Assembly (NCBI GenBank): GCA_903842065.1
Contig: CAIMKZ010000048.1
Coordinates: forward strand, 62,001-126,000
Direction: 5' to 3'
DNA length: 64,000 bases
Source of the DNA: an uncultured Acidobacteriaceae bacterium
GTDB taxonomy: Bacteria; Acidobacteriota; Terriglobia; Terriglobales; Acidobacteriaceae
The stretch's first letter is position 1, and each line of letters begins with the position of its first letter. Shown piece by piece: positions 3,238-24,503 of the stretch. The position numbers and the translations under genes were made by a program. The notes beneath the pieces were generated by a model. It was given only the letters and a program-made list of their open reading frames with translations. It did no database searches and was not told where the DNA came from.

Positions 3238-3382
3238 CGGAAATCCCTCATTTTACCTGCTTTCAGATGTAACGTACTGTGAGTCACAGGCAAGCTACAT
3301 CAATTGCCTATCCACGCAACGCCGACCCATCTACACTGGGTTGGTTGGTAGTTGATTCCGGCCGGTTTTGGAGGGTGACAGC

Positions 3383-5243: not shown

Positions 5244-6044
5244 TTGATAATCCGCTCGATCTGCTATCTGCTTCCGCTGGTTTCGCTCGCTGTTCTGTCC
5301 AGCATCAAGGGAGTGGCGGCTGCTCCGGCAACCGATATCCAGAAGGTGCTGGCGCCGACCGGGACGCTCCGGGTGGCGGTATATACAGGCACGCCCACAT
5401 CCGTGCTGAGCGCTACGGACCTGCGCGGCGTGGGATACGAACTCGGCGTAGAGTTGGCGCGGCTGATGCATGTTCCCTTTGAGCCGATTGTGTTTTCAAA
5501 GAACGCCGATGTTCTGGCGGCCGTAAAAGAGGGGCGCGCCGATGTCGCATTCACAAATGCTTCCGTCGAGCGCGCCAAGGACATGGATTTCACGCAGCCC
5601 TATCTGCTGATCGAGTTGGGGTACCTGGCAAGGGAGAACGCGCCTGTTCGTTCCCTGGCCGATGTGGACAAGCCTGGTGTGCGGGTGGGGGTAACAGAAA
5701 AAAGCTCCTCAGAAGCAGTGCTATCACGCGACCTGAAGAACGCGAAGGTGGTTCCGGCTGAGACGGTTAAGATCGGCATCCAGATGCTGTCGTCTGGAAC
5801 GCTTGACGTCTACGCGACCAATAAGGCAACCCTGTTCGAGATGGCTGATCAACTGCCCGGCTCGCGGGTGCTCGACGGCACCTGGGGCGACGAGAAGCAT
5901 GCGCTGGCCATCCCTAAAGGGAGAGACAGCGGGCTATCTTACTTACGCGCCTTTATCGCGGACGCTGTCGCAACCGGGCTGGTAAAGTCGGCAGTCGAGA
6001 GGGCTGGATTGCGGGGCGCGGTCGTGGCGAGTTTACAACCGTAA
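5244..6044 (+). CDS. Family 3 extracellular solute-binding protein (ABC-type periplasmic binding protein)
   Basis: Signal peptide; GTLRVAVYTGTP..., GYELGVELARLMHVPFEPIVF, DVAFTNASVERAKDMDFTQPYL. Confidence 0.8.
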   Translation: MIIRSICYLLPLVSLAVLSSIKGVAAAPATDIQKVLAPTGTLRVAVYTGTPTSVLSATDLRGVGYELGVELARLMHVPFEPIVFSKNADVLAAVKEGRADVAFTNASVERAKDMDFTQPYLLIELGYLARENAPVRSLADVDKPGVRVGVTEKSSSEAVLSRDLKNAKVVPAETVKIGIQMLSSGTLDVYATNKATLFEMADQLPGSRVLDGTWGDEKHALAIPKGRDSGLSYLRAFIADAVATGLVKSAVERAGLRGAVVASLQP

Positions 6045-6128
6045 CCGAACCTGCATTTGCTAACCGTACAAGATATCTATGACTGTCCAATACAGAGTGG
6101 TGTGCTTGGCGGTCAGCTCTGGAGCGTA

Positions 6129-7439: not shown

Positions 7440-7474
7440 CGATCGTTAAAGTGGTTAATAAGGAGAACAGTCTC

Positions 7475-8320
7475 TTGAAATTAACACGGAATACTCTTTG
7501 TTCGCTTGCGCTCGCCGCGGCACTTCTCCCAGTCACCATGGCAGAAGCCCAGGATCTGACGGTGATGACTTCCGGTGGATTCGCGGCGCCTGTCGAGCAG
7601 CTGACGCCGAAGTTTGAGGCATCCACTGGCTTGCATGTGGCGATCGTGCATGGCGCATCCATGGGCACTACCACGACTGCAATTCCCATGCGCCTGGCGC
7701 GCAACGAACCGGCCGAAGTCGTCATCATGGCCCGAAGTGAACTCGATTCCCTTGCCAAAAACGGCTTGGTAATTGAAGGCAGCCAGGTGGATCTGGTTCG
7801 ATCTCGGATCGGCATGGCAGTGAAGGTGGGTGCTCCGGTTCCCGACATCAGCACTGTAGCGGCGTTCAAGAGGACGCTACTGTCCGCCAAGTCCATTGCT
7901 TACTCCGACAGCGCGAGCGGAGTATATATCTCATCGGAGATGTATAAACTGCTCGGAATAGAAGTTGAAGTAGCCCCCAAGAGCAGGAGAATTCTGGGAG
8001 ATCCCGTTGGTGGAGTAGTTGCGAAGGGTGAAGTAGAGATTGGCTTTCAGCAGATGAGCGAGCTGAAGCCCATCGCCGGAATTACCATCGTGGGGCCCAT
8101 CCCCGACGACGTTCAGAAAGTGACCATCTTCTCCGCCGGAGTTGTCGCGTCAAGCCAGCATAAGGACGAGGCTCGCGCATTCATCAACTTCCTTGCATCC
8201 ACAGCAGTCTGCCCGGTGATCGTAGAAGACGCACTTGAACCAACGGCGTGCGTGCCTGACAAAATGATAGACGCGAGCAAGTCCCTGAGAAGCGGACCGC
8301 AAGTGAGTCCAGGAAAATGA
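7475..8320 (+). CDS. ModA-like periplasmic substrate-binding protein
   Basis: Signal peptide, LTVMTSGGFAAPVEQLTPKFEASTG..., C-terminal ARAFINFLAS; AAGGAG RBS upstream of TTG start. Confidence 0.75.
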   Translation: MKLTRNTLCSLALAAALLPVTMAEAQDLTVMTSGGFAAPVEQLTPKFEASTGLHVAIVHGASMGTTTTAIPMRLARNEPAEVVIMARSELDSLAKNGLVIEGSQVDLVRSRIGMAVKVGAPVPDISTVAAFKRTLLSAKSIAYSDSASGVYISSEMYKLLGIEVEVAPKSRRILGDPVGGVVAKGEVEIGFQQMSELKPIAGITIVGPIPDDVQKVTIFSAGVVASSQHKDEARAFINFLASTAVCPVIVEDALEPTACVPDKMIDASKSLRSGPQVSPGK

Positions 8321-8694: not shown

Positions 8695-10383
8695 ATGAAA
8701 CCTACTTTTCTGTTGAGCCTTGCAGCCGCCGCTGCGGCTATTGTCTTCCCGGTGAACGCACTTGTTGCCCAGCAAGCCGCGGGAGGCAAGTGTGAGAGCA
8801 TGGCCCAGTTCCATGCGCCGAATGTGACCATCTCGAGTTCAGTAGCGGTTACAGCGCCGCTCAAGGTCGGCAATGGCCCGATGGTGGTGACGATATCGAA
8901 GCCGTTTTGCCGGGTAAACGGGTTTCTGACGCCGACGAGCGATTCGCATATCGGCTTTGAGCTCTGGCTGCCTGAAGCTGCGGCGTGGAATCACAAGTTC
9001 GAGGCGGTGGGCAACGGTGGCTTTGCCGGCAGCCTGAACCTGCGCGCCATGCAGCCGGGCTTCGAGCGCGGATACGCCACGATGGCGACCGATCTGGGGC
9101 ATCTGGGCCAGGGCGTCGAGGACATCACCTGGGCGCTCAATCACCCGGAGAAATTTATCGACTATTCGTATCGCGCGGCGCACCTGACGACCGAGGTGTC
9201 GAAGCAGATTATCGCGGCCTACTACGGAACGACCGCGGCGCACTCGTATTATTCAGGATGCTCGGCCGGCGGGATTCAGGGCATCACCGAACTGCTGCGC
9301 TATCCGAAGGACTACGACGGCTACATTGTCGGCGACGGAACGCCGGACCATATGGGTCAGGAGATTGGCGCGTTCTGGAATACGATCGCCGCCTCAGGCC
9401 TGATGAATGCGGCCGACGCTATCCAGCCGGCGCAGATTTCGATGCTGCACGACGCGATTCTGAAGCAGTGCGCGGGCAAAGACGGCGGACTGGCGACTGA
9501 TGCCTTTCTCACTGAGCCTGAGCTCTGCAAGTTCGACACGAAGACGCTTGCCTGCAAGCCGGGGCAGGATGCGGCTGCGTGCCTCACGCCGGGGCAGATC
9601 GCCAATGTGGACAAGATCTTCAAGGGTGGGCCGATTGATCCGGTTACGCACAAGCAGTTTCTTGCGCCGGTTTCGGTGGGCGGCGAGGCGATCTGGGACC
9701 GCTACATCAGCGGCAAGAAGAATCCGGTGGGCTTCGAGCGGCCGTGGGCGGGCTTTATGGCCTACGTTGTCGAGAGCGACGCGGATTATCTGAGCCAGCA
9801 GAAGTATCTGACCTTCAACTTCGGCACCGATCTGGCCGCCGCCCGCAACCTGAAGTTGAGCGGGCAGACGCTGGACGCGGTCTTCAATACACAAAGCCGC
9901 GATCTGGAGGCCTTCAAGGCCGCCGGTGGGAAGGTGATTCAGTACCACGGGTGGGACGACTCGAACATTCCGCCGCTTGAGGCTGTGAACCTGTTCAATG
10001 AGGTTGTGGCCGATCAGGCCAGGCACCACAAGATCACCCCCCAGCAGGCACAGGAGGCGACCGAGAAGTTCTACCGCCTCTTCATGGTGCCGGGCATGGG
10101 GCACTGCTCGGGCGGCGAGGGCCCGAACGTCTTTGGGCAGACCGGCGGAAGCGGCCTGAAGGCCGAACCCGAGTATGACACGCTGCTTGCTCTGGAAGCA
10201 TGGGTTGAGAAGGGAACTGCTCCGGAGCAGTTCATCGGTTCCCACGTGGACCAGAAGACGAAGACCACAACGATGACTCGGCCTCTGTGCGTGTATCCCA
10301 AGGTGGCGATTTACAAGGGCAGCGGCGATCCAAACGATGCCGCGAGCTTCACCTGCGGGAAGGCGTCGGCGGCAAAGCACTAG
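8695..10383 (+). CDS. Tannase/feruloyl esterase family protein, exported
   Basis: GCSAGGIQG, HGWDDSN, VPGMGHCSGGEGP motifs; signal peptide; paralogous to 3383-4969. Confidence 0.9.
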   Translation: MKPTFLLSLAAAAAAIVFPVNALVAQQAAGGKCESMAQFHAPNVTISSSVAVTAPLKVGNGPMVVTISKPFCRVNGFLTPTSDSHIGFELWLPEAAAWNHKFEAVGNGGFAGSLNLRAMQPGFERGYATMATDLGHLGQGVEDITWALNHPEKFIDYSYRAAHLTTEVSKQIIAAYYGTTAAHSYYSGCSAGGIQGITELLRYPKDYDGYIVGDGTPDHMGQEIGAFWNTIAASGLMNAADAIQPAQISMLHDAILKQCAGKDGGLATDAFLTEPELCKFDTKTLACKPGQDAAACLTPGQIANVDKIFKGGPIDPVTHKQFLAPVSVGGEAIWDRYISGKKNPVGFERPWAGFMAYVVESDADYLSQQKYLTFNFGTDLAAARNLKLSGQTLDAVFNTQSRDLEAFKAAGGKVIQYHGWDDSNIPPLEAVNLFNEVVADQARHHKITPQQAQEATEKFYRLFMVPGMGHCSGGEGPNVFGQTGGSGLKAEPEYDTLLALEAWVEKGTAPEQFIGSHVDQKTKTTTMTRPLCVYPKVAIYKGSGDPNDAASFTCGKASAAKH

Positions 10384-10403
10384 CGCAGGCCTTATACCTG
10401 TCT

Positions 10404-10431
10404 GATTCCGGCCGCGAAAGCGGCCGGAATC
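10404..10431 (+). terminator. Stem-loop with GAAA tetraloop after tannase gene
   Basis: Perfect 12-bp arms GATTCCGGCCGC-GAAA-GCGGCCGGAATC; no T-tract, so termination is uncertain. Confidence 0.45.
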
Positions 10432-10645
10432 GTTGGGTGTGGATATGCGGTAACTTGCTTGTCCGCAATGGTTTCCGCAACTCTATACCTTTGCTGGAAC
10501 AGTTCAATCTACTGTTTGCCACTTTCGCATGTCCAAAGTTCCTTGTATATTCATCCATCGATAGCGAGTCTTCCCTGGCTGTTCCCCGTTGTTCCAACAG
10601 CTAACTGTTTCAACTCGACCGTAGCAATGCGTCAAAAGGACCGAA

Positions 10646-11857
10646 ATGTCTATCAATGAAGCTGCATCTTTCCGCAACGGACTCCAGCGGCGGGACTTCC
10701 TCAAGCTGGGTGTGGCGGCCACAGCCGCCGGAATCGCCGCGCCACAGGCGTCGGCCGCCGCTCCTCCGGCCAGCCTGGCGGGCGAGAACAGCTACGCAGC
10801 CAAGCTGACCGCCGCGAGCGTAATGCCGTCGAATGTTCCGCAGCGCCCGGGCCCGCCGATTTCGATCGATGTCCACTGCCATTGGGCGCCGGAAGTGTAT
10901 ATGAAGGCGAAGGCCGATCTGGGTCGCCCGGACTTTATCAGCCCCACGAATCACGATCTGGACGCGCGGGCCAAGTGGATGGACGCGCATGGGGAAAAGA
11001 TGCAGGTGCTTACGCTGGGCGGCTTCATGCCCTGGCAGTGGGTGACGCCGGAGCAGGGAGAGCATATCGCGCAGATCACCAACGATGCGGCGATGGAAGC
11101 GCACCTGTCTCATCCCGATCGTTTTCTGTTTGGCATCGAGCTGCCGGTGGGTTATGCCGAGGGTTCGCTGAAGGAGCTGAACCGCGTGGCCGGTAAGAAG
11201 GGCATGGTGGCTGTGCATCTGCCCAACTCGCTGGCCGGGCGCGAGTACCTCTTCGAGGATCGGTTCGCTCCCGTGCTGGCGCGGATTCAGGAACTGGGCC
11301 TGCCCATCCTGATGCATCCTCTGGACGGCGAGCCGAACTGGTATGCCGGGCACAGGCTGAACGATGAGTACTCCGGTGGCTCGCCCGCTGGAGTGGGGTC
11401 GCTGTTTCCCGGACTGACGAACTCTATTGGCGAGACGTTTGAGCAGGCAACCACGGTTGCCAAGCTCATCGTCAGCGGAACCATGGACAAGTATCCGGAG
11501 TTGCAGATCGTTATCAACCACGCGGGCGGAGCGTTTCCGTATGTCGTGGGCAGAATGGATCGCAGCGGCGGCAAGCTGAAGCAGCCCGTCCACGCCTACA
11601 TCCGCCGGTTCTACTACGACAACCTGGCCTGGTATCCGCTTTCGCTGAAGTACCTGATCGACCTGGTCGGGTCAGACCGCGTGGTGGTGGGAACCGACAA
11701 CATGGGCGCTACGACCGGAGCGCAGAACGCTGCCGGAGCCGCACCGGCAGGCGGTCCCGTACCGGGGCCACATTCCGTCCTCGATCAACTCGACCTTTCG
11801 GCAGAAGACCGCGACCTGATCCTGCGAGGGAATCTGAATGCGCTCTTCCATCTGTAA
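10646..11857 (+). CDS. Amidohydrolase (ACMSD/decarboxylase-like) with Tat signal
   Basis: Tat signal LQRRDFLKLGVAATAA; metal motifs DVHCHW, HPLDGEPNWYAGH, NHAGGAFPYVVGRMD, GTDNMG. Confidence 0.88.
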   Translation: MSINEAASFRNGLQRRDFLKLGVAATAAGIAAPQASAAAPPASLAGENSYAAKLTAASVMPSNVPQRPGPPISIDVHCHWAPEVYMKAKADLGRPDFISPTNHDLDARAKWMDAHGEKMQVLTLGGFMPWQWVTPEQGEHIAQITNDAAMEAHLSHPDRFLFGIELPVGYAEGSLKELNRVAGKKGMVAVHLPNSLAGREYLFEDRFAPVLARIQELGLPILMHPLDGEPNWYAGHRLNDEYSGGSPAGVGSLFPGLTNSIGETFEQATTVAKLIVSGTMDKYPELQIVINHAGGAFPYVVGRMDRSGGKLKQPVHAYIRRFYYDNLAWYPLSLKYLIDLVGSDRVVVGTDNMGATTGAQNAAGAAPAGGPVPGPHSVLDQLDLSAEDRDLILRGNLNALFHL

Positions 11858-11917
11858 ATAGCAACCCAACAGTAACGGGGGAGACCGCACACTTCGCCCC
11901 AACTCAAGGAGTTTCGA

Positions 11918-12562
11918 ATGCAAAAAGCAGTATTCGCTGTTCTTCTTCTCTCCGGCGCGCTCGCTGTCGCGCAGGGTCCGGCGGCACGCTCGGGCCAAAT
12001 TAGCCCCGGAACCGCCGGCGCAGGCACGCACGGCGACAAGCTCTTCACGGTCGCACAGATGCAAGAGATTCTGGCCAAGGGACCGGTGAAGAACGGCCAG
12101 CCCGCCGGCCTGAGCACGCGCCTGTTTGGCACCAACACTTATAGCTGCGCGTTTATCCGCATCAGCGAAGCCGACCAGCCGCACAGCCACGGCGAGTGGA
12201 GCGAGGTCCTCGTCATTACGCAGGGCACCGGCACCATTGTTACCGGCGGCACTATGAAGGGGCCGTGGACCTCGGGCAGCGCCGTACATCAGACGCTGTT
12301 TGTGGACGCCAGTGGAAATAAGACTACAGGCGGGCAGCAGCTTGGACCTGTGGTTCACCAGGGCGATCCGCCGCCGGAGGCCGACGCTTCGGGAACTTCG
12401 ATTGAAAGCGGCAACGCGTGGGAAGTAAAGCCCGGCGATCTCGTGCTGATTCCCGCCGGCACACCGCACCAGTGGACGAAGCTGAGCGGGCCGGTTGTGT
12501 ATCTCGATATCAAGTTCCCCAAGGCGACCGAGAAGGCAGCCGCAAAGCCGGCCAGCGAATAA
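11918..12562 (+). CDS. Cupin domain protein, exported
   Basis: Signal peptide MQKAVFAVLLLSGALAVAQG; cupin motif PHSHGEWSEVLVITQGTGTI and GTPHQW. Confidence 0.85.
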   Translation: MQKAVFAVLLLSGALAVAQGPAARSGQISPGTAGAGTHGDKLFTVAQMQEILAKGPVKNGQPAGLSTRLFGTNTYSCAFIRISEADQPHSHGEWSEVLVITQGTGTIVTGGTMKGPWTSGSAVHQTLFVDASGNKTTGGQQLGPVVHQGDPPPEADASGTSIESGNAWEVKPGDLVLIPAGTPHQWTKLSGPVVYLDIKFPKATEKAAAKPASE

Positions 12563-12659
12563 ATGCGAACGGCGATCGCTCGCATCAATCAACAACGAGA
12601 TCGAAGCTCCTATCCCGCATGAAACGCGGGATGGGAGCACGCAAAGGGGACTTTTCGGC

Positions 12660-14123
12660 ATGGTCATAAAGAACTCATTTACACGGCGCAGCCTGCTAAG
12701 TAATTCAAGTTATCTTCTTGCCGCTTCTGCGTTGCCGCGATTTGCGCGCGGTCAGGCGATTACGCCGATGATGCAGCGGCTCAGCACTTATATGGCAGAA
12801 GCCAAGGACAAGGCACTGCCGGAAGAAGTGGCGGAGAAGGCCAAGCAGCATATTCTCGACACCTTCGCGGCAATGGTTTCCGGAGCGACGCTGGCTCCAG
12901 GCGCGGCTGCGTTCAAATTTGCCCGCGATTATGGTGCGAGCGGAAAGCCCTACTCGACGGTTGTGGCCTCGAATATGGTTCTCGATCCCATCAACGCGGC
13001 GTTGATCAACGGTCAGTTGGCGCACTCCGACGAGACCGACGACTCGCACGCGCCTTCGCAGTCGCATCCCGGTTGCGGGGTTGTTCCGGCGGCGTACGCG
13101 GCAGCCGAGCGGTTCGCTGTATCGGGCACGCACTTTCTACGCGCGGTTGCGCTGGGCTACGACGTGGGTACGCGGGTGACGATGACACTCGGCGCAGAGC
13201 CTTACGAGAACGAGAGCCACCGCTCGACGCACATGATCTCGCCCTTGTTCGGAGCGGCGGCCGCGGCGGCTTGCGCTGCCTCGCTCACTGTGCAGCAGAT
13301 GCGCTGGGTTCTGAACTACGCAGCCGAGCAGGCCGGCGGAATCGCGCTGTGGAACCGCGACCCCGACCACATCGAGAAGGGCTTTGACTTTGCAGGTGGG
13401 CCGGCGCGCGACGGCGTGGCCTCCGCCATGTACGTTTACTCCGGCTGGACCGGGCTCGACGATGTTTTCACCGGGCCGCACAACTTCTTTCTCGCCTTCA
13501 ACCCACATGCCGATCCCAACGGGTTGATCGACAAGCTGGGCAGCGAGTTTCAGGTTGCGCGTACTGACATCAAGCGCTGGACCATCGGCATGCCGATCCA
13601 AGCGCCCATCGACGCCATGGAGTTTATTCGCCGCGAGAACTCGTTCACGCCGGCCGATGTGAAGTCGATCGCGGTGCGCATCGCCCCGCAAGAAGGCGCG
13701 ATCGTCGACAATCGTGCATTGCCCGACATCTGCATGCAGCATCTGCTTGCGGTCATGCTGCTCGACAAGACCATCACCTTCAAGACCGCGCACGATGCCG
13801 CGCGCATGAAGGACCCTGCGGTTCTGGAGCAGCGCGCCAAGGTGAGCATCGTCAACGACGAAGAGCTGGGCAAACTGATGCCGCATCGCCAGGCCACGGT
13901 CATTCTTACGTTGAACGACGGGCGCAGCTTCTCAAAACACGTGGACTCGGTTCGGGGCACGGTATCGAACCCCATGACCAGCGACGAAGTGAAGACAAAA
14001 GCACGCGATCTGATGGCGCCCACGCTGGGCGCGGAGAAGACCACGAAGTTTATCGACGGCATCTTCGCAATTGAGAAGCTTGGCGATATCCGCGAGCTGC
14101 GAGGCCTGCTGCAAACGCCGTAA
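12660..14123 (+). CDS. MmgE/PrpD family protein with putative Tat signal
   Basis: N-terminal FTRRSLLSNSSYLLAASALPRFARGQ; INGQLAHSDETDDSHAPSQSHPGCGVVPAAYAAAE typical of MmgE/PrpD. Confidence 0.88.
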   Translation: MVIKNSFTRRSLLSNSSYLLAASALPRFARGQAITPMMQRLSTYMAEAKDKALPEEVAEKAKQHILDTFAAMVSGATLAPGAAAFKFARDYGASGKPYSTVVASNMVLDPINAALINGQLAHSDETDDSHAPSQSHPGCGVVPAAYAAAERFAVSGTHFLRAVALGYDVGTRVTMTLGAEPYENESHRSTHMISPLFGAAAAAACAASLTVQQMRWVLNYAAEQAGGIALWNRDPDHIEKGFDFAGGPARDGVASAMYVYSGWTGLDDVFTGPHNFFLAFNPHADPNGLIDKLGSEFQVARTDIKRWTIGMPIQAPIDAMEFIRRENSFTPADVKSIAVRIAPQEGAIVDNRALPDICMQHLLAVMLLDKTITFKTAHDAARMKDPAVLEQRAKVSIVNDEELGKLMPHRQATVILTLNDGRSFSKHVDSVRGTVSNPMTSDEVKTKARDLMAPTLGAEKTTKFIDGIFAIEKLGDIRELRGLLQTP

Positions 14124-14149
14124 TGAGGTACACCCGGGAGGGAAAGCAG

Positions 14150-14677
14150 ATGCTTGTTCGACCCATGAAAGTAGTCGCCGCGAGAGCCGTTTTCGCAATA
14201 CTGGTATGCGCGGCAGGGCAGGTCGCGATTTCAGCACAGAATCTCGACACGCACGGGATGCCGTCTCAACAGCAGCTATCAACGCCGGAATATCTGAAGA
14301 CGGTTCTGATCAAGGTGACGAAGCGCGAGTATGACATCAAGAAGCTGGTGTCTGCGCCGTCGCTTTCTCCCGAGGCGAAGGTGGGGCAGGCGCTGTGGCA
14401 GCAACGCTGCGGATACTGCCACGACGGCATGGGGCAGCCCACTTACAAGACCATGGGCAGCTGGATCGACTCCGACATGGTGAAGGATCTGGGCGCCGAC
14501 ACCGTGAAAGCTTTCATCTCAAACGGCGTGGACCGGATGCCTGCGTTCAAGTATGGACTCGACGACAAGCAGATCAACGCCATCGTCGAATTTCTCAAGA
14601 CGGTTTCTCCCAAGCTGAAGCCCACGGCGGCACAGCTGGCGGGCAAGCTGGATGGCCCCGGCAGCAACGCGGAATAA
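14150..14677 (+). CDS. Cytochrome c, monohaem, exported
   Basis: CGYCH haem motif, signal peptide; RBS GGAGGG upstream of ATG 14150 (earlier ATG at 14123 also possible). Confidence 0.82.
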   Translation: MLVRPMKVVAARAVFAILVCAAGQVAISAQNLDTHGMPSQQQLSTPEYLKTVLIKVTKREYDIKKLVSAPSLSPEAKVGQALWQQRCGYCHDGMGQPTYKTMGSWIDSDMVKDLGADTVKAFISNGVDRMPAFKYGLDDKQINAIVEFLKTVSPKLKPTAAQLAGKLDGPGSNAE

Positions 14678-14705
14678 CGCATCGATCCACGGCATAAATG
14701 AGGCA

Positions 14706-16601
14706 ATGATGAAGAAGTTATCTATCGCGATCGTTCTGGCGTTGGTGGTGATTGGGCTTGCGGCCTGGACCGCTGTGTACACTCGCTCAGCTGAGGCTGC
14801 CAGCGAGCACCCTGCCCTCATAGGCGCAATTCACAGCGCCGGTGGAAAGGCGATGGGCGGCGTGGCCGTATCGGCGCGCTCATCGGAGCAGACATTTAAC
14901 ACAACGGTATACACGGATGAGACCGGCGAGTATGTGTTTCCCGCTCTGGCCAGTGGCAACTACAAGATCTGGGCGCAGGCGGTGGGTTTCTCGATCGACC
15001 GCGCCGAGGTGAAGCTGGATGGAGCCGCGACGGCTCGCCAGAACTTCTCGCTCAAGCCGATCGACAACTTCGAGATGCAGCTCACCGGCTCGGAGTGGCT
15101 CGCGGCCTTGCCCGAGGACACGGCTCAACACAAGAAGATGAAGCAGGTTCTCTACGTCTCCTGCACGGGCTGCCACGGACTCGATCTGGTTCTGAACAAC
15201 CGCTTCGACGAAGAGGGCTGGCGGTTGCAGGTGAAGTCGATGGAGTCGGCCGACTACCGCGGCTATCGCGGCGCAGACGACATGCCGGCCGGCAACCTCG
15301 GCTGGGAGGGTCAGGTCATCCGGCATCATCGCGACGAGCTTGCAAAGTATCTGGCCGAGATGCGCGGCCCCGGCCCCTCACCGATGAAGCTGAAGCCCTT
15401 CCCGCGGCCTACCGGCGAAGCTGCCCGCGCGGTGATCACCGAGTACGATCTGCCTAACGAAATTATTCCGACCGAGATGGGACGCAACTACGGCGACGAC
15501 TGGACGCTTGGCCCCTCTACCGGCATGCACGGGCAGGTCGGCATCCACGATGTGGTCGCAGACAACCTGGGCAAAGCCTGGATTACGTCGAGCCGCGAGT
15601 CCTTTGAGACCAACCGCCAGCTAATCAAGCTCGATCCCAAGACCGGAGCGATGACGCTGATCAATGTTCGGAACGCCAACGGTGGTGCGATGTACTACGA
15701 GCAGATCACGCAGCCCGATCCCAAGGGATATATATGGATGCACGGCGGCGGTAACTTTGTGCGCATCGATCCGGCCACCGATACGCTCACGGCTTATCCC
15801 ATTCCGCGCGTCTATGGCGGGACGATGAATTCGATCGATCCTGACTCCAAGGGCCGGGTGTTTGCCAACGGCCACTCGGGCACGGTCGAGTTCGATCCAG
15901 CTGGGCAGGATGCAACCGGCATCATTTATCCCGGCTGGCACTACTACCAGCAAATTACGCCGGGCAACAGCACCACCTACGGAATCTCTGTCGATTCGGA
16001 AGACAATCCGTGGTGGTCTGAGAGCTATTCGAGCAAGGTGGCTGTGCGCAACATGAAGACCGGCAAGGTGACCGAGTTCGACATGCGCGATCCTGGTTAC
16101 GAGGCTCGCAAGGCGCTCTTCAAGTCCGACTTAGCCTTCTACGAGTCAATCGGCGGAGAGATCTGGTCCGGCACTTCGGGCACTCCGCTGCCGTATGGCG
16201 AGTTCCCGCGCAGGCTGGCGGCGGACAAGACCGGCGACACAGTGTGGATTCCGAACTGGGCGCAGACGAATATCGCCGAGATCAACATCCACACGATGAA
16301 GGTGACGTATCACGAGTTGCCGCTGCAAATGCATCCTTATAAGACCATCGTGGACAAGTTCCACAATGTCTATACGGACACGCAGGTGGGCGACGGGCTG
16401 TACAAGTTCACTCCTTCAACTCAGAAGTGGACTTACTTCCAACTGCCGACGCATGGATGCAGTTCACGGCACATGAGCTTCGATGACAACCTGAACGAGG
16501 CATGGATTCCCTGCGATCAGGCCGACACCGTCGATCGTGTGCAGTTCCGCACCGCCGAGCAGGTGCGTGCGCTGAAGGCAGCGGCAATTCCAGCGAAATA
16601 G
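14706..16601 (+). CDS. Carboxypeptidase-regulatory-like / cytochrome c / virginiamycin B lyase-like propeller fusion, exported
   Basis: Signal peptide; HSAGGKAMGGVAVSARSSEQTFNTTVYTDETGEYVFPALASGNYKI; CTGCHGLDLV; repeated propeller blades (WITSSRESFETNRQLIKLDPKTGAMT..., NPWWSESYSSKVAVRNMKTGKVTEFD). Confidence 0.82.
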   Translation: MMKKLSIAIVLALVVIGLAAWTAVYTRSAEAASEHPALIGAIHSAGGKAMGGVAVSARSSEQTFNTTVYTDETGEYVFPALASGNYKIWAQAVGFSIDRAEVKLDGAATARQNFSLKPIDNFEMQLTGSEWLAALPEDTAQHKKMKQVLYVSCTGCHGLDLVLNNRFDEEGWRLQVKSMESADYRGYRGADDMPAGNLGWEGQVIRHHRDELAKYLAEMRGPGPSPMKLKPFPRPTGEAARAVITEYDLPNEIIPTEMGRNYGDDWTLGPSTGMHGQVGIHDVVADNLGKAWITSSRESFETNRQLIKLDPKTGAMTLINVRNANGGAMYYEQITQPDPKGYIWMHGGGNFVRIDPATDTLTAYPIPRVYGGTMNSIDPDSKGRVFANGHSGTVEFDPAGQDATGIIYPGWHYYQQITPGNSTTYGISVDSEDNPWWSESYSSKVAVRNMKTGKVTEFDMRDPGYEARKALFKSDLAFYESIGGEIWSGTSGTPLPYGEFPRRLAADKTGDTVWIPNWAQTNIAEINIHTMKVTYHELPLQMHPYKTIVDKFHNVYTDTQVGDGLYKFTPSTQKWTYFQLPTHGCSSRHMSFDDNLNEAWIPCDQADTVDRVQFRTAEQVRALKAAAIPAK

Positions 16602-16666
16602 AGAACGAGGCTGGCGATGTATTCTCAGCTCATCGAGTTGAACATGCATCGCCGGGGAGACTAGCA

Positions 16667-17860
16667 ATGACGAAAGAAACGGGATATTTGAACCGTCGGG
16701 ACTTTTTTAAGGTTGGAGCAGCGGTAACGGCGGCCACCGCAATCACCGGCCCCGAGGCAAAGGCGCAGACGTGGGCGCAGAGCTATGCGGGCGAGAACAG
16801 CTATGCCGGAAAACCAATACCGCAGGGCACGCCGAAGCCCTGGAATGTGCCGCAGATTCCAGGCCCGCCCATTTCGATCGACGTGCACACGCACTGGTCG
16901 CCGCAGGGCTATCTGGATCTGAAGGCCAAATGGGGGAAGCCCGACAATCTGACGCCTTCCAACTACGACATGGAGAAACGCATCCAGTGGATGACGGCGA
17001 ACGGCGAGAAGATGCAGGTTCTCACGCTGGGCGGATTCATGCCCTGGCAGTGGACTTCTCCCGAGCAGGCGCTCCAGGTGGCGCAGGTTGTCAATGATGC
17101 GGCCATCGAGGTTCACGCAAAATATCCAGATCACTTTCTTGCTGGAATCGAGCTGCCGGTCAACGCGCCCGATCTGGCGCTCAAGGAACTGGATCGCGTG
17201 GCCGGCAAGCCGGGTATGGTGGGCGTGCATCTGCCTAACTCGCTGGCGGGGCGCGAGTATCTGTTTGAGCCCGCGTTCGCGCCGGTGCTGGCGCGCTGCG
17301 ACGAGCAGAAGATACCGCTGCTCATCCATCCGCTGGACGGCGAGCCGAACTGGTACGCCGGACACCGGCTTGCCGATCCCTACTCGGGACCGAATCAGAC
17401 CGGGTTGTTTCCCGGGCTGACCAATACGGCAGGCGAGACGTTTGAACAGGCGACGACGATTTCGAAGCTGATCGTCAGCGGCACGCTCGACAAGTATCCC
17501 AACCTGGACATCGTTGCGGCGCACTCCGGTGGAGCGTTCGCCTTTATCGCCTCGCGCATCGACTGGCGCGGCGGCGACAACGGCCTCAAGCACCCCTTCC
17601 TGAGCTATGTGCGCCGGTTCTACTTCGATGCGCAGACGTATTATCCGCTGGCGCTGAAGTTCCTGATCGAGTTTGCCGGGGCCGACCGCATCGTGGTCGG
17701 AACGGACAACATGGGTCCGCAGGCCAACACCAACGCCAACAACACGAACGCCAACCGGCCGCAGGGAGGACCGCACTCCCTCATCGACCAGGTAGGGCTT
17801 TCGGCAGGAGATCGCGATCTGATTCTGAGAGGGAACCTCACGCGTCTCTTCAAGCTGTAG
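16667..17860 (+). CDS. Amidohydrolase (ACMSD-like) with Tat signal, paralogue of 10646-11857
   Basis: NRRDFFKVGAAVTAATA Tat signal; DVHTHW, HPLDGEPNWYAGH, AHSGGAFAFIASRID, GTDNMG. Confidence 0.88.
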   Translation: MTKETGYLNRRDFFKVGAAVTAATAITGPEAKAQTWAQSYAGENSYAGKPIPQGTPKPWNVPQIPGPPISIDVHTHWSPQGYLDLKAKWGKPDNLTPSNYDMEKRIQWMTANGEKMQVLTLGGFMPWQWTSPEQALQVAQVVNDAAIEVHAKYPDHFLAGIELPVNAPDLALKELDRVAGKPGMVGVHLPNSLAGREYLFEPAFAPVLARCDEQKIPLLIHPLDGEPNWYAGHRLADPYSGPNQTGLFPGLTNTAGETFEQATTISKLIVSGTLDKYPNLDIVAAHSGGAFAFIASRIDWRGGDNGLKHPFLSYVRRFYFDAQTYYPLALKFLIEFAGADRIVVGTDNMGPQANTNANNTNANRPQGGPHSLIDQVGLSAGDRDLILRGNLTRLFKL

Positions 17861-17871
17861 TGCAATGTAAG

Positions 17872-17913
17872 GGCGCGGGGCAGGCGGGTCTAACGGGCCG
17901 CCTGCCCCGCGCC
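17872..17913 (+). terminator. Very strong stem-loop in cluster
   Basis: Perfect 16-bp arms GGCGCGGGGCAGGCGG / CCGCCTGCCCCGCGCC, 10-nt loop, after the amidohydrolase stop. Confidence 0.6.
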
Positions 17914-18081
17914 ATTTGCATTTACAGGTAACTTCCATGACGATGGTCACCGGAGCCAGTGGCTCCTGCGGATAAAGTGTTATGAAGCAACCAATCGCGG
18001 AGACAGCCGCGTTCTCCGGCAGGCGGATGAATCGCGGAAGCGGCTCGCGGAATTTATCCGGCCGATCACGGGAGTTCAACC

Positions 18082-19368
18082 ATGAAGTGGACACGCAGAA
18101 CACTGTTGCAACGGGGATTGACCGCAACGGCAGCGGTGGCCGCATTGCCGCAGTTTGCACAAGAGGCAACGGGCCAAAGTCCGGCGGCGCAAACTGCTCC
18201 GGGAGCTGTCACGGTAGATACGATTCCTGCCGCTGCGCGCATTGCCCTCACGGATCTGATCGACCATGGCGCGCATCTTCATTCGGGGCAGAAGGTGCTT
18301 CTTGTGGCCTACCTCGACGGGCTCTATGGCGGCGACAATCTTGTCGATCGTCAGGCCATGCTCTGGCTGCAAAGGTCGATTGAGGAACGCGGAAACAAGG
18401 TCGAGGTTCTGTGGGTCGATGAGATCACGCGCGTCAACGAGTGGAAGTTTCCCACCTACGTGCGCGCCGCTATGGACCGCGCCGACGTGGTCTTTAACCA
18501 CTCCTTCGATCTGACCATGGAGGAAGTGCTGGAGTTCCGCAGCTACATTGAGCACGAGCGCAAGGGCCTGCCCATGGTGCGCAACTTTGCCACAACAGTT
18601 CCCTTGCTGTGCACTACCTGGGCGCAGACGCCGCAGGAACTGGTGAGCGAGATTAGGTACCAGGCATCGACAAGAATCGTCTCAGGGCTCAAGTGGGAGC
18701 TGACCGACCCTAATGGCACACATCTTGAGGGAACGGTGAAGCCCGCGCAGAACGTGACTAACGCGGCGCATAGCTACGCGGTCCGCCGCGAAGACTCGAA
18801 CAGCTACTATCCCTGGCCGGAGTGGGTATGCCCGCCCATCGTGCTGGCCGGAACCAACGGAACTTTTGTCTTCGATCGTATGTTGAGCTGGTGGTCGCGC
18901 TACATCGGCATCTCGCCTTATTTCAAAAGTCCGATCACGCTCACCATTCGAGACAATCGTATAGAGAAGATCGAAGGCGGCGCTGAGGCCGACGCACTGC
19001 GGCGCTTCATGGCTTTCCTGCACAGCAAACTGGGCGACAGCACGTATGTCTTCGACACGTTGCATTTCGGAGTGCATCCGCAGGCCCGAGTTGCACCGCA
19101 GCAGTGCCCCAGCGTCCTCTACCGGCGCATGATCGAGCACTCCGACATTCACAACCTGCACGTGCACGTAGGCTCGGGCGTCGCTACAAAGGAATATCCT
19201 TACTGGCCGCACATCACCGGAGATCTTCGCCAGCCGACTTTCCGCATCGGCGACCGGCTGGTGCACGAAAACGGCCGGCTCACCGCGCTCGACGATCCTG
19301 AGGTGAAGGCCATTGCGGCAAAGTATCCCGGCCACCCTGGGCTCGATCCGGAACCGTATCAGGGGTGA
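18082..19368 (+). CDS. Tat-exported protein resembling M29 leucyl aminopeptidase / 2,5-dihydroxypyridine dioxygenase (NicX) family
   Basis: Tat signal KWTRRTLLQRGLTATAAVAALPQFAQ; LHSGQKVLLVAYLDGLYGGDNLVDRQAM, LHFGVHPQARV, HNLHVHVGSG. Confidence 0.55.
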   Translation: MKWTRRTLLQRGLTATAAVAALPQFAQEATGQSPAAQTAPGAVTVDTIPAAARIALTDLIDHGAHLHSGQKVLLVAYLDGLYGGDNLVDRQAMLWLQRSIEERGNKVEVLWVDEITRVNEWKFPTYVRAAMDRADVVFNHSFDLTMEEVLEFRSYIEHERKGLPMVRNFATTVPLLCTTWAQTPQELVSEIRYQASTRIVSGLKWELTDPNGTHLEGTVKPAQNVTNAAHSYAVRREDSNSYYPWPEWVCPPIVLAGTNGTFVFDRMLSWWSRYIGISPYFKSPITLTIRDNRIEKIEGGAEADALRRFMAFLHSKLGDSTYVFDTLHFGVHPQARVAPQQCPSVLYRRMIEHSDIHNLHVHVGSGVATKEYPYWPHITGDLRQPTFRIGDRLVHENGRLTALDDPEVKAIAAKYPGHPGLDPEPYQG

Positions 19369-19494
19369 TTTTGAGTTGAACGGTGCGGCTACATATCATG
19401 AATACGACTCATTCAACTACTGAGAAAGCGAAGCAAAGCCCTTCGCGGCTTTTGCCGGCGTTTTCCCGTCTATAAGGACAGAGGAAGATACGCA

Positions 19495-20394
19495 ATGATT
19501 ATCGATACCCACCAGCATTTCTGGAACATCGAACGGCCCTGGGCCAAAGGCGTGCAGGACTACAGGATTCTGGCCGAGCCCGAGGGCATCACGGGCACAA
19601 TTCTGCGCCTGGAAGAAAACGAGACGGCTCTTGAGATTGCGAACCAGAATCCCTTTGTCGTCGGCGTTTGCGGCGAAGTCATTCCGGGGCCGGAGTTCGA
19701 GGCCAAGCTGAATCACTACGCGGTGGACCCGCTCTATCGCGGCATTTGCCTGTTTGGGCCCGTGCTGGCTGATGTGGGCAAAGACCCGAAGATGTTTCTC
19801 GGCTGCATGGAGCAGTTGGCGGCAAAGCAACTGCCGCTCGAACTGCTGCGCGCGCTTCCCGGATTCTGGGGCGGGCCGAAGGCGATGCAGAAGTTTCAGG
19901 GGACTAAAGAATCCGTCGAAGGGCTGATCGCAATCGCCGAGGCCGTTCCCGATATGCCCATCGTGGTTCAGCATATGGGCGGGCTGCCGATCGACGGCAA
20001 GCCACTTACGCCGGAGTGGGAAGAGAAGTTCCAGATGCTGGCCAAGTATCCGCAGATCGTGATCAAGGTCTCGGGCCTGATGCGCGGCGACGCCACGCGG
20101 GCGCAGAACGAACGCTCCAGCGAGTCACTGGGCTTCTACCGGCCGGTGCTGGACGCTGTGTGGCGGATCTTCGGCGAGGACCGGCTGATGTACGGCAGCA
20201 ACTGGCCGGTCAGCGAGCACGAAGGCGATTTTATTTCTCAAGGCATGAGGCTGGTGCGGCGCTACTTCTCAGAGAAGGGCCAGGTGGCCCTGGAGAAGTA
20301 CTACTGGAAGAACTCGCTCCACGTCTACAAGTGGAAGCCGCGTATGCTGGCACAGACCTACGAAGGCAGCCCGGCGCCCATCACCGCGGCATAA
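19495..20394 (+). CDS. Amidohydrolase_2 family hydrolase (LigI/fuconolactonase-like)
   Basis: IIDTHQHFWNIERPW N-terminal metal motif, VVQHMGGLPI, YGSNWPVSE. Confidence 0.85.
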   Translation: MIIDTHQHFWNIERPWAKGVQDYRILAEPEGITGTILRLEENETALEIANQNPFVVGVCGEVIPGPEFEAKLNHYAVDPLYRGICLFGPVLADVGKDPKMFLGCMEQLAAKQLPLELLRALPGFWGGPKAMQKFQGTKESVEGLIAIAEAVPDMPIVVQHMGGLPIDGKPLTPEWEEKFQMLAKYPQIVIKVSGLMRGDATRAQNERSSESLGFYRPVLDAVWRIFGEDRLMYGSNWPVSEHEGDFISQGMRLVRRYFSEKGQVALEKYYWKNSLHVYKWKPRMLAQTYEGSPAPITAA

Positions 20395-20429
20395 CTGCCG
20401 CCGATCATTGATTGAAAGGGACGAAGACT

Positions 20430-20834
20430 ATGGCAGACGAAAGCACAGAGCAGAGAAAAGAGAAGTTGCTCGCGGATATGGCAGCCGAGAGGGGATTCCT
20501 GCCCAAGGAGTGGCAGTGGGTCGCAGATCAGGACCTGGATTATCTCGAGGCTTATAACAATCTCTGGCGTCAGGCATCGAACGAAGGCAAGTATCTATCT
20601 GTCAAGACGCGCGAGCTGATCGTCATCGGGATTCTTGCCTTCCGCGGCTCGGAAGGCGCGGTGTACTCGCACTGCCAGCGCGCGCTCAAGTTCGGCGCCA
20701 CCATTCCGGAGTTGCTGGAAGCCTTCGAGACGATGGTCGTGACCGGCGGCGCTCCGACGTTTGCCCTCGGGCTGAAGGTGCTGATGCGCATTCTTAAAGA
20801 GCAGGAAGAGCAGAACGAGCAGGCGAAGAAGTAG
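20430..20834 (+). CDS. Carboxymuconolactone decarboxylase family protein
   Basis: SVKTRELIVIGILAFRGSEGAVYSHCQRALKFGATIPELLEAFE. Confidence 0.85.
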   Translation: MADESTEQRKEKLLADMAAERGFLPKEWQWVADQDLDYLEAYNNLWRQASNEGKYLSVKTRELIVIGILAFRGSEGAVYSHCQRALKFGATIPELLEAFETMVVTGGAPTFALGLKVLMRILKEQEEQNEQAKK

Positions 20835-20863
20835 CCGGGCAGCGGTTGCGAGAGGAGATTCAT

Positions 20864-21181
20864 ATGGCGGAACAGGATGAACAAAAGCCCGGATTCATCG
20901 GCCCCGGACACTATCCGGTGAAGGTGGAAATCATCAGTCAGAAGGGCCACTGCCATCTGGGCCACAAGGTCGGCGACACATGGACCGTGAGTCACGTAAC
21001 ACCCGGCGGCATGTGCATTGGGGCGTTCCAGGCGATGGCGCTCCAGTTGAAGATGTTGGAGTTTGGAGGCGGGTTCCCGTGGGCGCCGGACAAGGACTCG
21101 CACGAGTGCGCCTGCCCGGATGGCAACAATCCCATCATCTTCAAATTAACGAGGCTCCGCGAGCAACCTCCGAAAGAGTAG
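20864..21181 (+). CDS. TIGR04076-like family protein
   Basis: YPVKVEIISQKGHCHLGHKVGDTW ... GFPWAPDKDSHECACPDGNNPIIFKLTR. Confidence 0.75.
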   Translation: MAEQDEQKPGFIGPGHYPVKVEIISQKGHCHLGHKVGDTWTVSHVTPGGMCIGAFQAMALQLKMLEFGGGFPWAPDKDSHECACPDGNNPIIFKLTRLREQPPKE

Positions 21182-21196
21182 GCAGGGAGAACGGGT

Positions 21197-22975
21197 ATGG
21201 CAGAGTCCACGGCGCAGGCTCCGCAGATCATCTGGAAGAAAGAGACGATCGGCGGTGAAGAGATCGAGGTCGCTTACCGCGAGGCCATGCGGCCCGAGCC
21301 GCTGGGCACCGCTGCCAGCCGTGCGCCGAAGGGCAAGCTGCCAACCTACGTAGTTGACGGCTGGGGCGACTTTCCTCCGCTCAATCCCCGCACGTACGAG
21401 ATCGCGCCCGGAATTATCTGCGAGCAGGACGTGGCCATTCCCATGCGGGATGGCATCATCACTTACTGCGATATCTATCGTCCGGCAAACCAGACCAACA
21501 TCCCGGTCATCATTGCGTGGAGCTACTACGGCAAGCGGCCGAGTGCGGACTCGCTGCACATCGAGTGGCAGACGCGCGGCGTGCCTTACGGCTCGCACTC
21601 GAACCACGCCAAGTTCGAAGGGCCCGACCCCGAGTACTGGTGCCACAAGGGCTACGCCATCGCCAACTACGACATGCGCGGAGTGAACAACTCCGAGGGC
21701 GATCTCTGTTTCTGGGGCAAGTACGAGCGCAGCGACGGCTACGACCTGATCGAGTGGCTCGCCGAGCAGGAATGGTGTAACGGCAAGGTGGGCATGGCTG
21801 GCAACTCCGCGCTGGCCATGGCGCAGTGGCGGATCGCCGCCGAGCAGCCGCCGCATCTGGCCGCTATCGCGCCGTGGGAAGGTGCGGCCGACGCCTATCG
21901 CGAACTCTACAACATGGGCGGGTTCACCGAGTACGGATTCCGCAAGTTTATGTGGAAGGCCTTCAAGGGCAAGAACCTTGTCGAAGATCCCTTCGCGATG
22001 ATTGAGCGCTATCCCCTGTTGAACGCCTACTGGCAGAGCAAAATCCCCGACTTCGAGAAGATCGAGGTTCCCGCATACATTACGACCGGATGGAATCACT
22101 TCCATAATCGCGGCGCGGTGAATGGATTCCGGCTCATCGGGTCAAAGCAAAAGTGGCTGCGCACGCACCGGGACTTCGAGTGGCCCGATCAGTACTCGCG
22201 GGAGGGGATCGACGACCTGACGCGATTCTTCGACCGCTATCTCAAAGGCATTCGCAACGGCTGGGAGTCAACGCCGCGTGTGCGCATCGAAGTTATGGAC
22301 GCCTACGACTTCGACGATCAAACCTCGCGGGCCGAAACCGATTTTCCGCTGGCGCGAACGGAGTATCGCAAGCTTTATCTCGATGCCGCGAAAAATGCGC
22401 TGAGCCAAGTTCCTGTCGAAGTTGAATCGCAGTGCCGATACGATGGCAACACAGGCAAAGCCACGTTCGACATCACATTCAACGAGGAGACAGAGCTCAG
22501 CGGCTATATGAAGCTGCATCTGTGGGTCGAGGCCGACGGCAACGACGAGATGGATCTGTTTGTGGCGATTCAGAAGCTTGACGCGAACGGCAAATGGCTG
22601 CCGACGAACGCACTGGGCAAGTCCCACCCCGGCACTCCCGGCAAGCTGCGCGTGTCGCTGCGCGAGACCGATCCGGAGAAGTCGACCGAGTTCCAGCCTT
22701 ATTACCCGTACAACAATCCGCAGAAACTCAAGCCGGGAGAGATCGTTCCTGTCGATATTGAAATTTGGCCGTCGAGCCGGACCTGGCACGCCGGCGAGCA
22801 GTTGCGCGTGGAAGTCATGGGGCACTACGAACGCATCGACTGGTTTGAGCCTTTTGCCTGGAATACCGACAACAAGGGGACGCACATCATCCACTCGGGC
22901 GGCCGGTACGATTCGCATCTACTGGTGCCGTATATTCCGCCGAAGTATGTTGCGGGCAACCGAGTTTATCGCTAA
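21197..22975 (+). CDS. CocE/NonD family hydrolase
   Basis: VAIPMRDGIITYCDIYRP, NGKVGMAGNSALAMAQW, C-terminal jelly-roll (SGYMKLHLWVEADGNDEMDLFVAIQKLD). Confidence 0.88.
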   Translation: MAESTAQAPQIIWKKETIGGEEIEVAYREAMRPEPLGTAASRAPKGKLPTYVVDGWGDFPPLNPRTYEIAPGIICEQDVAIPMRDGIITYCDIYRPANQTNIPVIIAWSYYGKRPSADSLHIEWQTRGVPYGSHSNHAKFEGPDPEYWCHKGYAIANYDMRGVNNSEGDLCFWGKYERSDGYDLIEWLAEQEWCNGKVGMAGNSALAMAQWRIAAEQPPHLAAIAPWEGAADAYRELYNMGGFTEYGFRKFMWKAFKGKNLVEDPFAMIERYPLLNAYWQSKIPDFEKIEVPAYITTGWNHFHNRGAVNGFRLIGSKQKWLRTHRDFEWPDQYSREGIDDLTRFFDRYLKGIRNGWESTPRVRIEVMDAYDFDDQTSRAETDFPLARTEYRKLYLDAAKNALSQVPVEVESQCRYDGNTGKATFDITFNEETELSGYMKLHLWVEADGNDEMDLFVAIQKLDANGKWLPTNALGKSHPGTPGKLRVSLRETDPEKSTEFQPYYPYNNPQKLKPGEIVPVDIEIWPSSRTWHAGEQLRVEVMGHYERIDWFEPFAWNTDNKGTHIIHSGGRYDSHLLVPYIPPKYVAGNRVYR

Positions 22976-23052: not shown

Positions 23053-24369
23053 TTACGCTGCTGACAACTTTTTCTTTGCGAGGCTGCGCATCAATATTGC
23101 CATCATGCCCGCTGCGGCAAGCGCGGCGACCATCAAGCCCCGGAGGCCGATGTTGTAGTTGCCGGATGCGTCCTTCATCACGCCCATCCAGTAGGGTGCG
23201 ACGAATCCGCTGAAGATGGCGATGGTGTTCATGGCGGCGATACCAGCGGCTGCGGCAGGGCCGGCCAGAAACTCCATCGGGACAGAGAGCGCCGGACCCC
23301 AGAGCGAGTAGGTGGCGATAAAGCTTACGGCCAGCGAGATTACAACCACCCACATATTGGCGGAGTAGCTGGCGATCAAGAAACCGGCGGCCATTACGAT
23401 GCAGGGCACGATGCAGTGCAGAGCGCGCTCACGTTTATGGTCCGAATGAATGCCGTTGAGCAGCATGGCTACCGCGCCGATGAGCGAGAAGAGCGCGATC
23501 ATCCAGCCGACAGCGCCCGCGCGCTGCCCGGTTGCTTCGGTGAGGATCAAGGGCAGCAGCAGAGTGAGACCGTAGGCGCAGATGCCGACGAAGAAGAAGT
23601 AGAGCCCGACGGTCCACACGCGGGGAGAGAGCAGCGCCTTGAGGATTCCGGCATCGTGGCCGAGGTGCGCTTTCTCGCCGTCGCGGGCGAGCTGCTCATC
23701 GAGCCAGTCGAGTTCCTCGCGGGTGAGCCATTTTGCCTGCTTCGGGGAGTCGGGCAGCAACCAGAAAATTACCGGAGCGAAGAAGACAGCGGGCAGGCCT
23801 TCGACGAGGAAGAGCCACTGCCAGCCGGCGAGTCCGAGATGGCCGTTGAGGCTCATGAGCCAGCCGGTGAGGCCGCCCATCAACACGGAACTCAGCGGCA
23901 GCGCGATGTAAAAGCGGCTGGCTGCGCGGGCGCGCATCGTGATGGGATACCAGAGGGTGAGGTAGTAGATCACTCCGGGATAGAAGCCGGCTTCGGCCAC
24001 GCCGAGCAGAAACCTGAGCGCGTAGAACTCGATGGGCGAGTGCACGAACATCATCGACGTGGCGACCAGGCCCCAGACGAACATGATGGTGGCCATGATG
24101 CGCTTGGCGCCGTAGCGCAACAGCAGCAGGTTTGAGGGCACCTCGGCCGCGGCGTTACCGATGAAGAACAGGCCTGCGCCAAAGCCGTAGATGGTCGCGG
24201 TGAAGTGCAGGTCGAGGTTCATGCTGAGCGCGGCGTAGCTCACGCTGGCGCGGTCCATGAAGGCCAGTCCGTAGCCGATGCCGAGGATCGGAAGCAGCCG
24301 CCAGCTGATCTTGCGCGCGGCGTTGTGGGCCAGCGCCTCTATTGCGGTCGCCTGTGGGTTCTGCGCCAT
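23053..24369 (-). CDS. MFS transporter (ACS/phthalate-permease-like)
   Basis: FMDRASVSYAALSMNLDL, FLLGVAEAGFYPGVIYYLTLWYP, multiple TM segments; internal start MAQNPQ at 24369. Confidence 0.88.
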   Translation of the reverse strand: MAQNPQATAIEALAHNAARKISWRLLPILGIGYGLAFMDRASVSYAALSMNLDLHFTATIYGFGAGLFFIGNAAAEVPSNLLLLRYGAKRIMATIMFVWGLVATSMMFVHSPIEFYALRFLLGVAEAGFYPGVIYYLTLWYPITMRARAASRFYIALPLSSVLMGGLTGWLMSLNGHLGLAGWQWLFLVEGLPAVFFAPVIFWLLPDSPKQAKWLTREELDWLDEQLARDGEKAHLGHDAGILKALLSPRVWTVGLYFFFVGICAYGLTLLLPLILTEATGQRAGAVGWMIALFSLIGAVAMLLNGIHSDHKRERALHCIVPCIVMAAGFLIASYSANMWVVVISLAVSFIATYSLWGPALSVPMEFLAGPAAAAGIAAMNTIAIFSGFVAPYWMGVMKDASGNYNIGLRGLMVAALAAAGMMAILMRSLAKKKLSAA

Positions 24370-24503
24370 TCGCGTTCCTCTCGACCGGGAGATTGGTTGG
24401 CGACGGATTTGAGCAGTCCGCGCGTCGAGATTTTTCTCATCTGGCAGGGCGGAGAGTTCAAAGAGGCGGGAACTCCCGTCCACCCACCCCCTTAACAATT
24501 TTG

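Follow-up and report, generated by a model that had tools for sequence, protein, structure and literature searches.

The window analyzed here, a stretch of 64,000 nucleotides from an uncultured member of the Acidobacteriaceae, is part of a 195-kb contig in a 4.09-Mb acidobacterial genome (labelled G000) and contains a long run of genes for predicted catabolic enzymes, several with export signals (Table 1). The contig belongs to the genus and is no contaminant: its MnmG protein is 79-82% identical to those of congeners. The original prediction, made from the sequence alone, was that twelve co-directional genes form a catabolic pathway operating largely outside the cytoplasm. The twelve open reading frames (ORFs; 8695-22975) are indeed all present and intact on the plus strand, and the series reaches further upstream, through two solute-binding proteins (SBP3 and SBP11) enclosing an MFS transporter, a second tannase-family esterase, a regulator-like ORF and a TonB receptor; counted from the TonB receptor through the CocE family esterase, there are 18 co-directional genes. 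Pfam and NCBIfam searches agree with the families originally named: within the twelve, they identify tannase, two Amidohydro_2, Cupin_2, the N- and C-terminal MmgE_PrpD domains, cytochrome c, CarboxypepD_reg with a weak Vgb_lyase match and a CXXCH motif, a third Amidohydro_2, the carboxymuconolactone decarboxylase (CMD) domain, TIGR04076 and CocE.

Table 1. Genes of the run and its borders (positions in the window)
Feature	Coordinates	Strand	Remarks
TonB-dependent receptor, 3' part of 982 aa	1..1645	+	start 1.3 kb upstream of window; barrel profile slightly below cut-off
Regulator-like ORF	1861..3237	+	no Pfam match
Tannase/feruloyl-esterase family protein 1, predicted exported	3368..4969	+	PF07519, E 5e-115; CS-D-HC residues
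Family-3 solute-binding protein (SBP3)	5244..6044	+	
MFS transporter	6057..7439	+	
Solute-binding protein SBP_bac_11 (SBP11)	7451..8320	+	
Tannase/feruloyl-esterase family protein 2, Sec-type N-terminus	8695..10383	+	PF07519, E 3e-97; CS-D-HC residues
Tat-type ACMSD-family amidohydrolase 1 (metal-dependent decarboxylase/hydrolase family)	10646..11857	+	
Cupin, predicted exported (Sec)	11918..12562	+	Cupin_2
Tat-type MmgE/PrpD-family lyase	12660..14123	+	both PrpD domains
Small c-type cytochrome, CGYCH	14123..14677	+	
CarboxypepD_reg, CTGCH heme site and Vgb-like beta-propeller fusion	14706..16601	+	
Tat-type ACMSD-family amidohydrolase 2	16667..17860	+	63% identity to amidohydrolase 1
Tat-type distant NicX/M29-fold protein	18082..19368	+	profile and fold search
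LigI-like amidohydrolase without signal, probable lactonase	19495..20394	+	
CMD protein without signal	20412..20834	+	
TIGR04076 family protein	20846..21181	+	
CocE/NonD (S15) family esterase without signal	21197..22975	+	
MFS transporter bordering the run; membership uncertain	23053..24498	-	

The genes are unevenly spaced. The intergenic gaps are 11-12 bp between SBP3, MFS and SBP11 (5244-8320), at most 97 bp within 10646-17860 and at most 17 bp within 19495-22975; the M29-like gene is flanked by gaps of 221 and 126 bp, and some modules are separated by 221-375 bp. The PrpD start is placed near 12660, given that a longer ORF from 12495 would overlap the cupin gene. The spacing suggests transcription units at 5244-8320, 8695-10383, 10646-17860 and 18082-22975, which makes at least two operons likely. 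Scans for promoters and terminators gave no more matches than scans of shuffled sequences.

Both ACMSD-type amidohydrolases, the PrpD family protein and the M29-like protein carry a twin-arginine motif, and are assigned to the twin-arginine (Tat) type on the basis of RRx followed by a hydrophobic residue near the N-terminus, conserved among relatives. Among relatives with a readable N-terminus, the motif is present in all 23 acidobacterial amidohydrolases (one judged from its printed N-terminus only) and all 10 PrpD proteins; it is absent from all 14 betaproteobacterial amidohydrolases. The M29 relative from the congener G083 also has the motif, and two M29 paralogues from the same genome as the window lack it. 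The genome encodes TatC. A motif that is kept across relatives is firmer evidence than a signal prediction from a single sequence; the extracytoplasmic location of the Tat-type enzymes is well supported in these comparisons, with Tat-dependent export itself remaining a prediction. Together with the two tannase-family esterases, these conserved motifs uphold the original notion of a cluster for catabolism in which several enzymes are exported.

The two esterases match PF07519 over the full domain, have exported-type N-termini and contain, as read by eye, the motifs GCSAGG...GMGHCSGG and GCSTGG...GMGHCAGG; CS-D-HC is the catalytic motif of the tannase/feruloyl esterase family. These proteins point to ester-linked phenolics, and it is mainly their presence that suggests an aromatic substrate.

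Loci related to the amidohydrolases were retrieved with an alignment as the query, amidohydrolase 2 alone giving none. In this alignment, H74, H76, H221, D347 and H286 are invariant; following the ACMSD pattern, we take these residues to be the H-x-H, His and Asp metal ligands and the catalytic His. A search of the PDB with the amidohydrolase profile yields matches with E-values down to 3e-37, and the top-ranking relatives of known structure are nonoxidative decarboxylases. The proteins of the run resemble ACMSD, gamma-resorcylate and 5-carboxyvanillate decarboxylases in family, metal ligands and catalytic His, but differ in being Tat-type and in that such enzymes are paired in some genomes; Betaproteobacteria have versions of this clade without a signal. 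The PrpD protein shares both domains with methylcitrate dehydratase and cis-aconitate decarboxylase of the MmgE/PrpD superfamily, but is Tat-type and scores 32 bits against the 2-methylcitrate dehydratase NCBIfam equivalog, far below the cut-off of 950; its PDB matches are IDS-epimerase and cis-aconitate decarboxylase. Elsewhere in the genome, a tandem pair of Tat-type PrpD genes is accompanied by an MFS transporter and an isopropylmalate-synthase-like gene (L177:3663-8157, G000:C13). The cupin has a 34% identical relative in locus L164 of another acidobacterial genome.

Of the signal-less proteins, the CocE/NonD hydrolase scores 228.7 bits against TIGR00976 (cut-off 66.3). For the LigI-like and CMD proteins, the family membership originally proposed stands, but curated functional cut-offs are not reached: the LigI-like protein scores 60 bits where the fuconolactonase cut-off is 400, with weak PDB matches to 4dlf and 2ffi, and the CMD protein scores 24.7 bits against PcaC (TIGR02425, cut-off 155.7).

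Another contig of the same genome (G000:C21) encodes a gallate dioxygenase (L176:9218-10537, minus strand), which scores 706 bits against the PRK13367 equivalog (cut-off 412) and matches PDB entry 3wku with an E-value of 3e-184. This enzyme fits a tannin/gallate lifestyle and makes it probable that gallate is cleaved in the cytoplasm, independently of the exported enzymes of the run. The latter would then act on another, non-gallate acid, for which ellagitannin-type or quinate-ester products, but also polycarboxylates, are candidates.

These features are compatible with the hypothesis, to which we give an even chance, that the run is an accessory island with which the host catabolizes a plant (poly)phenolic or similar acid bound by ester linkage. 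Under this hypothesis, the TonB receptor would carry the substrate across the outer membrane, and the two exported esterases, whose family assignment is clear, would release acids from it. Any gallate released would go to the dioxygenase encoded elsewhere, whereas a non-gallate product would be decarboxylated, rearranged or hydrolyzed outside the cytoplasm by the Tat enzymes, namely the paired ACMSD-family amidohydrolases, the PrpD-family lyase and the NicX-fold metalloenzyme, and by the Sec-type cupin. The c-type cytochrome and the Vgb-propeller/cytochrome fusion, an acidobacterial module that accompanies Tat-PrpD in the bacterial family of the host, might serve the Tat enzymes in a redox or binding role. 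Finally, the solute-binding proteins and the MFS transporter would import the product, and the lactonase-like, CMD, TIGR04076 and CocE proteins would finish it.

Analysis of genomic contexts reveals that parts of the run recur in other acidobacteria. Three genomes from the host's family (G023, G125 and G135) each have a Vgb-cytochrome fusion gene within 10 kb of a Tat-PrpD gene (51-54% identical); TonB-type receptors are encoded close by, as is an MFS transporter in G023 and G125. Within the family, this arrangement is found in 3 of the 4 loci with enough flanking sequence versus 0.02 expected under random placement, G023 and G125 being from the same genus and not fully independent. In another family, locus L163 of genome G155 contains a Tat-amidohydrolase, Tat-PrpD, Vgb-cytochrome and TonB receptor, all within 9 kb, and in L162 of the same genome the genes for TonB, Tat-amidohydrolase, Vgb fusion and cytochrome c are consecutive. 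By sequence, the L162 and L163 amidohydrolases (30-31% identical to those of the window) are relatives rather than close orthologues. Closer relatives (45-56%) occur in varied settings in other families of the class, some near genes for exported-type oxidoreductases: a Tat gluconate-dehydrogenase subunit and a GMC protein (L064), an FMN (flavin mononucleotide)-dependent dehydrogenase (L059) and a PQQ (pyrroloquinoline quinone)-type protein (L066). In the congener G083, a 65% identical Tat-type M29 gene has a tannase gene and two TonB receptor genes near it. Conservation of the neighborhood, proposed as a check of the original prediction, is found for subsets, Tat-PrpD with Vgb-cytochrome and TonB, joined by a Tat-amidohydrolase in L163, and the island is accessory and new as a combination but built from recurring acidobacterial modules.

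Several observations weigh against a single catabolic island. None of the other genomes searched had the complete gene set. The amidohydrolases of L162-L164 are only 30-33% identical to those of the window. Outside the family, the proximity of PrpD to Vgb genes is marginal (4 of 30 loci, 1.4 expected, p 0.04), and that of amidohydrolase to Vgb genes is at chance level (3 of 35, 2.1 expected, p 0.36); the coordinates for these and the other proximity tests given here were read by hand, with random placement assumed and 40 copies taken for genomes in which at least 30 were listed. Vgb genes are so numerous that proximity to them means less, and the amidohydrolase-Vgb linkage that appears striking in L162-L164 falls to chance level overall once copy number is counted. 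The genes may form several operons, and the order of the pathway is our proposal. No ABC permease is encoded near the two solute-binding proteins. Lastly, Pfam and NCBIfam searches detect no recognizable flavin, PQQ or molybdenum dehydrogenase in the run. Without an identifiable dehydrogenase, the original idea that electrons pass from a periplasmic oxidation to cytochrome c is conceivable but lacks support, unless the oxidoreductase is the Vgb fusion. Both the single pathway and the periplasmic oxidation are readings that we infer.

A less probable reading is that the run is a mosaic in which SBP-MFS, tannase, Tat-PrpD/Vgb-cytochrome/amidohydrolase and M29/lactonase/CMD/CocE modules came together by accretion and are not parts of a single pathway. 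Every module recurs without the others, and the wider gaps noted above fall between some of them. The sampled congeners lack the run: amidohydrolase relatives were found in 0 of 13, PrpD is absent from 7 of 7, and the M29-like gene is present in one of 78 others (G083). Accretion is harder to reconcile with 18 co-directional genes, with the very tight spacing within modules and with the joint occurrence of amidohydrolase, PrpD and Vgb-cytochrome genes in L163, in another family. Searches of plasmids gave no near relatives, that is, none for the M29-like protein, a weak one for the Vgb fusion and an amidohydrolase 32% identical at best.

Somewhat less probable again is that the substrate of the amidohydrolase/PrpD core is not aromatic but an aliphatic polycarboxylic or oxo/hydroxy acid, with the tannases only delivering an acid side chain. 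In Betaproteobacteria, the amidohydrolase gene is found by a PrpD gene in 10 of 14 loci (2.2 expected), and the neighbors include D-2-hydroxyacid dehydrogenase, Ldh_2, GMC oxidoreductase, FAA hydrolase and many Bug-type binding proteins; an SBP3 relative is near the amidohydrolase in 7 of the 14, as upstream in the window. The PrpD relatives with structures noted above, cis-aconitate decarboxylase and IDS-epimerase, also suit such a substrate. However, the betaproteobacterial loci are mutually related, and the counts are not independent; the proximity to PrpD, initially taken as strong evidence, is suggestive only, given that these genomes (L086-L108) show a very large expansion of the family, with 38-99 MmgE/PrpD genes each. 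Moreover, solved members of the ACMSD family mostly decarboxylate aromatic or muconate-type acids, and the genome has a gallate dioxygenase. Some family-3 solute-binding proteins near the amidohydrolase in these bacteria (L102:13766-14545 and relatives) have no evident signal and may represent binding-protein folds recruited as enzymes.

It is also conceivable, although we consider it rather unlikely, that the island serves gallotannin use only: the tannases would release gallate, which the cell would take up and cleave with its gallate dioxygenase, and the other exported enzymes would be incidental or used for by-products. Two tannases and a bona fide gallate dioxygenase are what such a pathway would show, and the similarity to known gallate/tannin catabolism (tannase, DesB/GalA, GalB/C/D) extends to a PrpF-like protein encoded in locus L116 of the genome. 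However, the dioxygenase gene lies on a different contig, where no obvious pathway genes surround it in L176; neither a gallate dioxygenase nor a recognized GalB, GalC or GalD is encoded in the run, and the Tat enzymes that dominate it would be left without a role, most of the enzymes of the run having export signals.

The run contains two c-type heme sites, one of them in the Vgb fusion. This protein resembles virginiamycin B lyase (Vgb) in its propeller repeats but is fused to a regulatory domain and a heme site, and scores 21.7 bits against the Virginiamycin B lyase family (PF24684), where the gathering score is 50. It is very improbable that this weak match marks an antibiotic inactivation cluster with a streptogramin lyase, given the score below the family cut-off, the heme site and regulatory domain that are unexpected in a lyase, and the catabolic enzymes all around. 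Some acidobacterial genomes carry a greatly enlarged Vgb-cytochrome family, two of them having at least 30 copies. G155, G262 and G241 encode from 17 to at least 30 Vgb-propeller/cytochrome c fusions each, several arrayed with small cytochromes and other propellers (e.g., L164-L165). In a related cluster (L167:7138-9426), a Tat-type molybdopterin-binding, xanthine-dehydrogenase-like protein is encoded between two Vgb-cytochrome genes and is a candidate electron donor there.

Neither Pfam nor NCBIfam gives a match for the M29-like protein. A PDB search with its profile gives NicX, a 2,5-dihydroxypyridine 5,6-dioxygenase, as the top match (E-value 0.028), and a Foldseek search with its AlphaFold model places NicX (7cn3) first, with an E-value of 1.9e-13, followed by M29 aminopeptidases; the model is of low confidence (pLDDT 55), and the fold match alone is used here. 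In NicX, the iron ligands are His265, Ser302, His318 and Asp320, and the substrate is contacted by His105, Glu177 and His189 (PMC7910607). In the M29-like alignment, H328 and H377 can be placed at ligand positions, and an H-x-G strand resembles the His265 site, but the H-x-D carboxylate ligand (Asp320) is out of register, as is Ser302, which remains unmatched; several other histidines are invariant, and the three substrate residues are not conserved. With about 19% identity and a Tat signal, the protein is, judging by the model, a distant NicX-fold protein: the likeness originally proposed is borne out in the fold but not in the substrate residues, and the NicX iron ligand set is matched in part. 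A role as the gallate dioxygenase is weakened by the bona fide enzyme on contig C21.

Two M29 paralogues are encoded elsewhere in the same genome (G000:C5). In L116:4009-14793, which resembles an unnamed catabolic pathway, a signal-less M29 paralogue is encoded with a PrpF/oxalomesaconate-tautomerase-like protein (322 bits, cut-off 440), large and small aconitase subunits, a methylisocitrate-lyase-like protein, OYE, a metallo-beta-lactamase, PrpD and MFS. A third paralogue (L118:14142-19901 and L119:1050-7376) is found beside a lactonase-fold propeller and an esterase-like protein, with a radical SAM protein, a Tat-type dienelactone hydrolase and a TonB-type receptor. The presence of NicX-fold paralogues beside PrpF, aconitase-type and methylisocitrate-lyase-like genes and beside dienelactone hydrolase and lactonase genes is consistent with a family of ring-opening enzymes. 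A bolder proposal, which we regard as doubtful, is that the opening of an aromatic or lactone ring takes place outside the cytoplasm through the Tat-exported NicX-fold metalloenzyme, preceded or followed by the action of the Tat-exported ACMSD-type decarboxylases and PrpD; the periplasm would then house most of an aromatic catabolic route.

Generally, aromatic and polyphenol catabolism is described as cytoplasmic following ester hydrolysis. The island differs in that, within one clade of ACMSD-type enzymes, acidobacterial members have export signals and betaproteobacterial members do not, with exported PrpD and Vgb-cytochrome proteins recurring alongside. If the proposed island is real, acidobacteria, which are abundant in peat and forest soils, would perform part of polyphenol breakdown outside the cytoplasm, with intermediates shared or exposed. 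The hypothesis also offers a testable role for the large Tat-PrpD and Vgb-cytochrome families; in the literature searched, with subscription papers mostly outside reach, neither a description of such a cluster nor an assigned function for either family was found.

Anti-phage defense profiles matched none of four proteins tested. In a part of the window unlinked to the run (52863-56612, minus strand), genes resemble, as judged by eye, those of a three-subunit molybdenum hydroxylase of the CoxS/M/L type.

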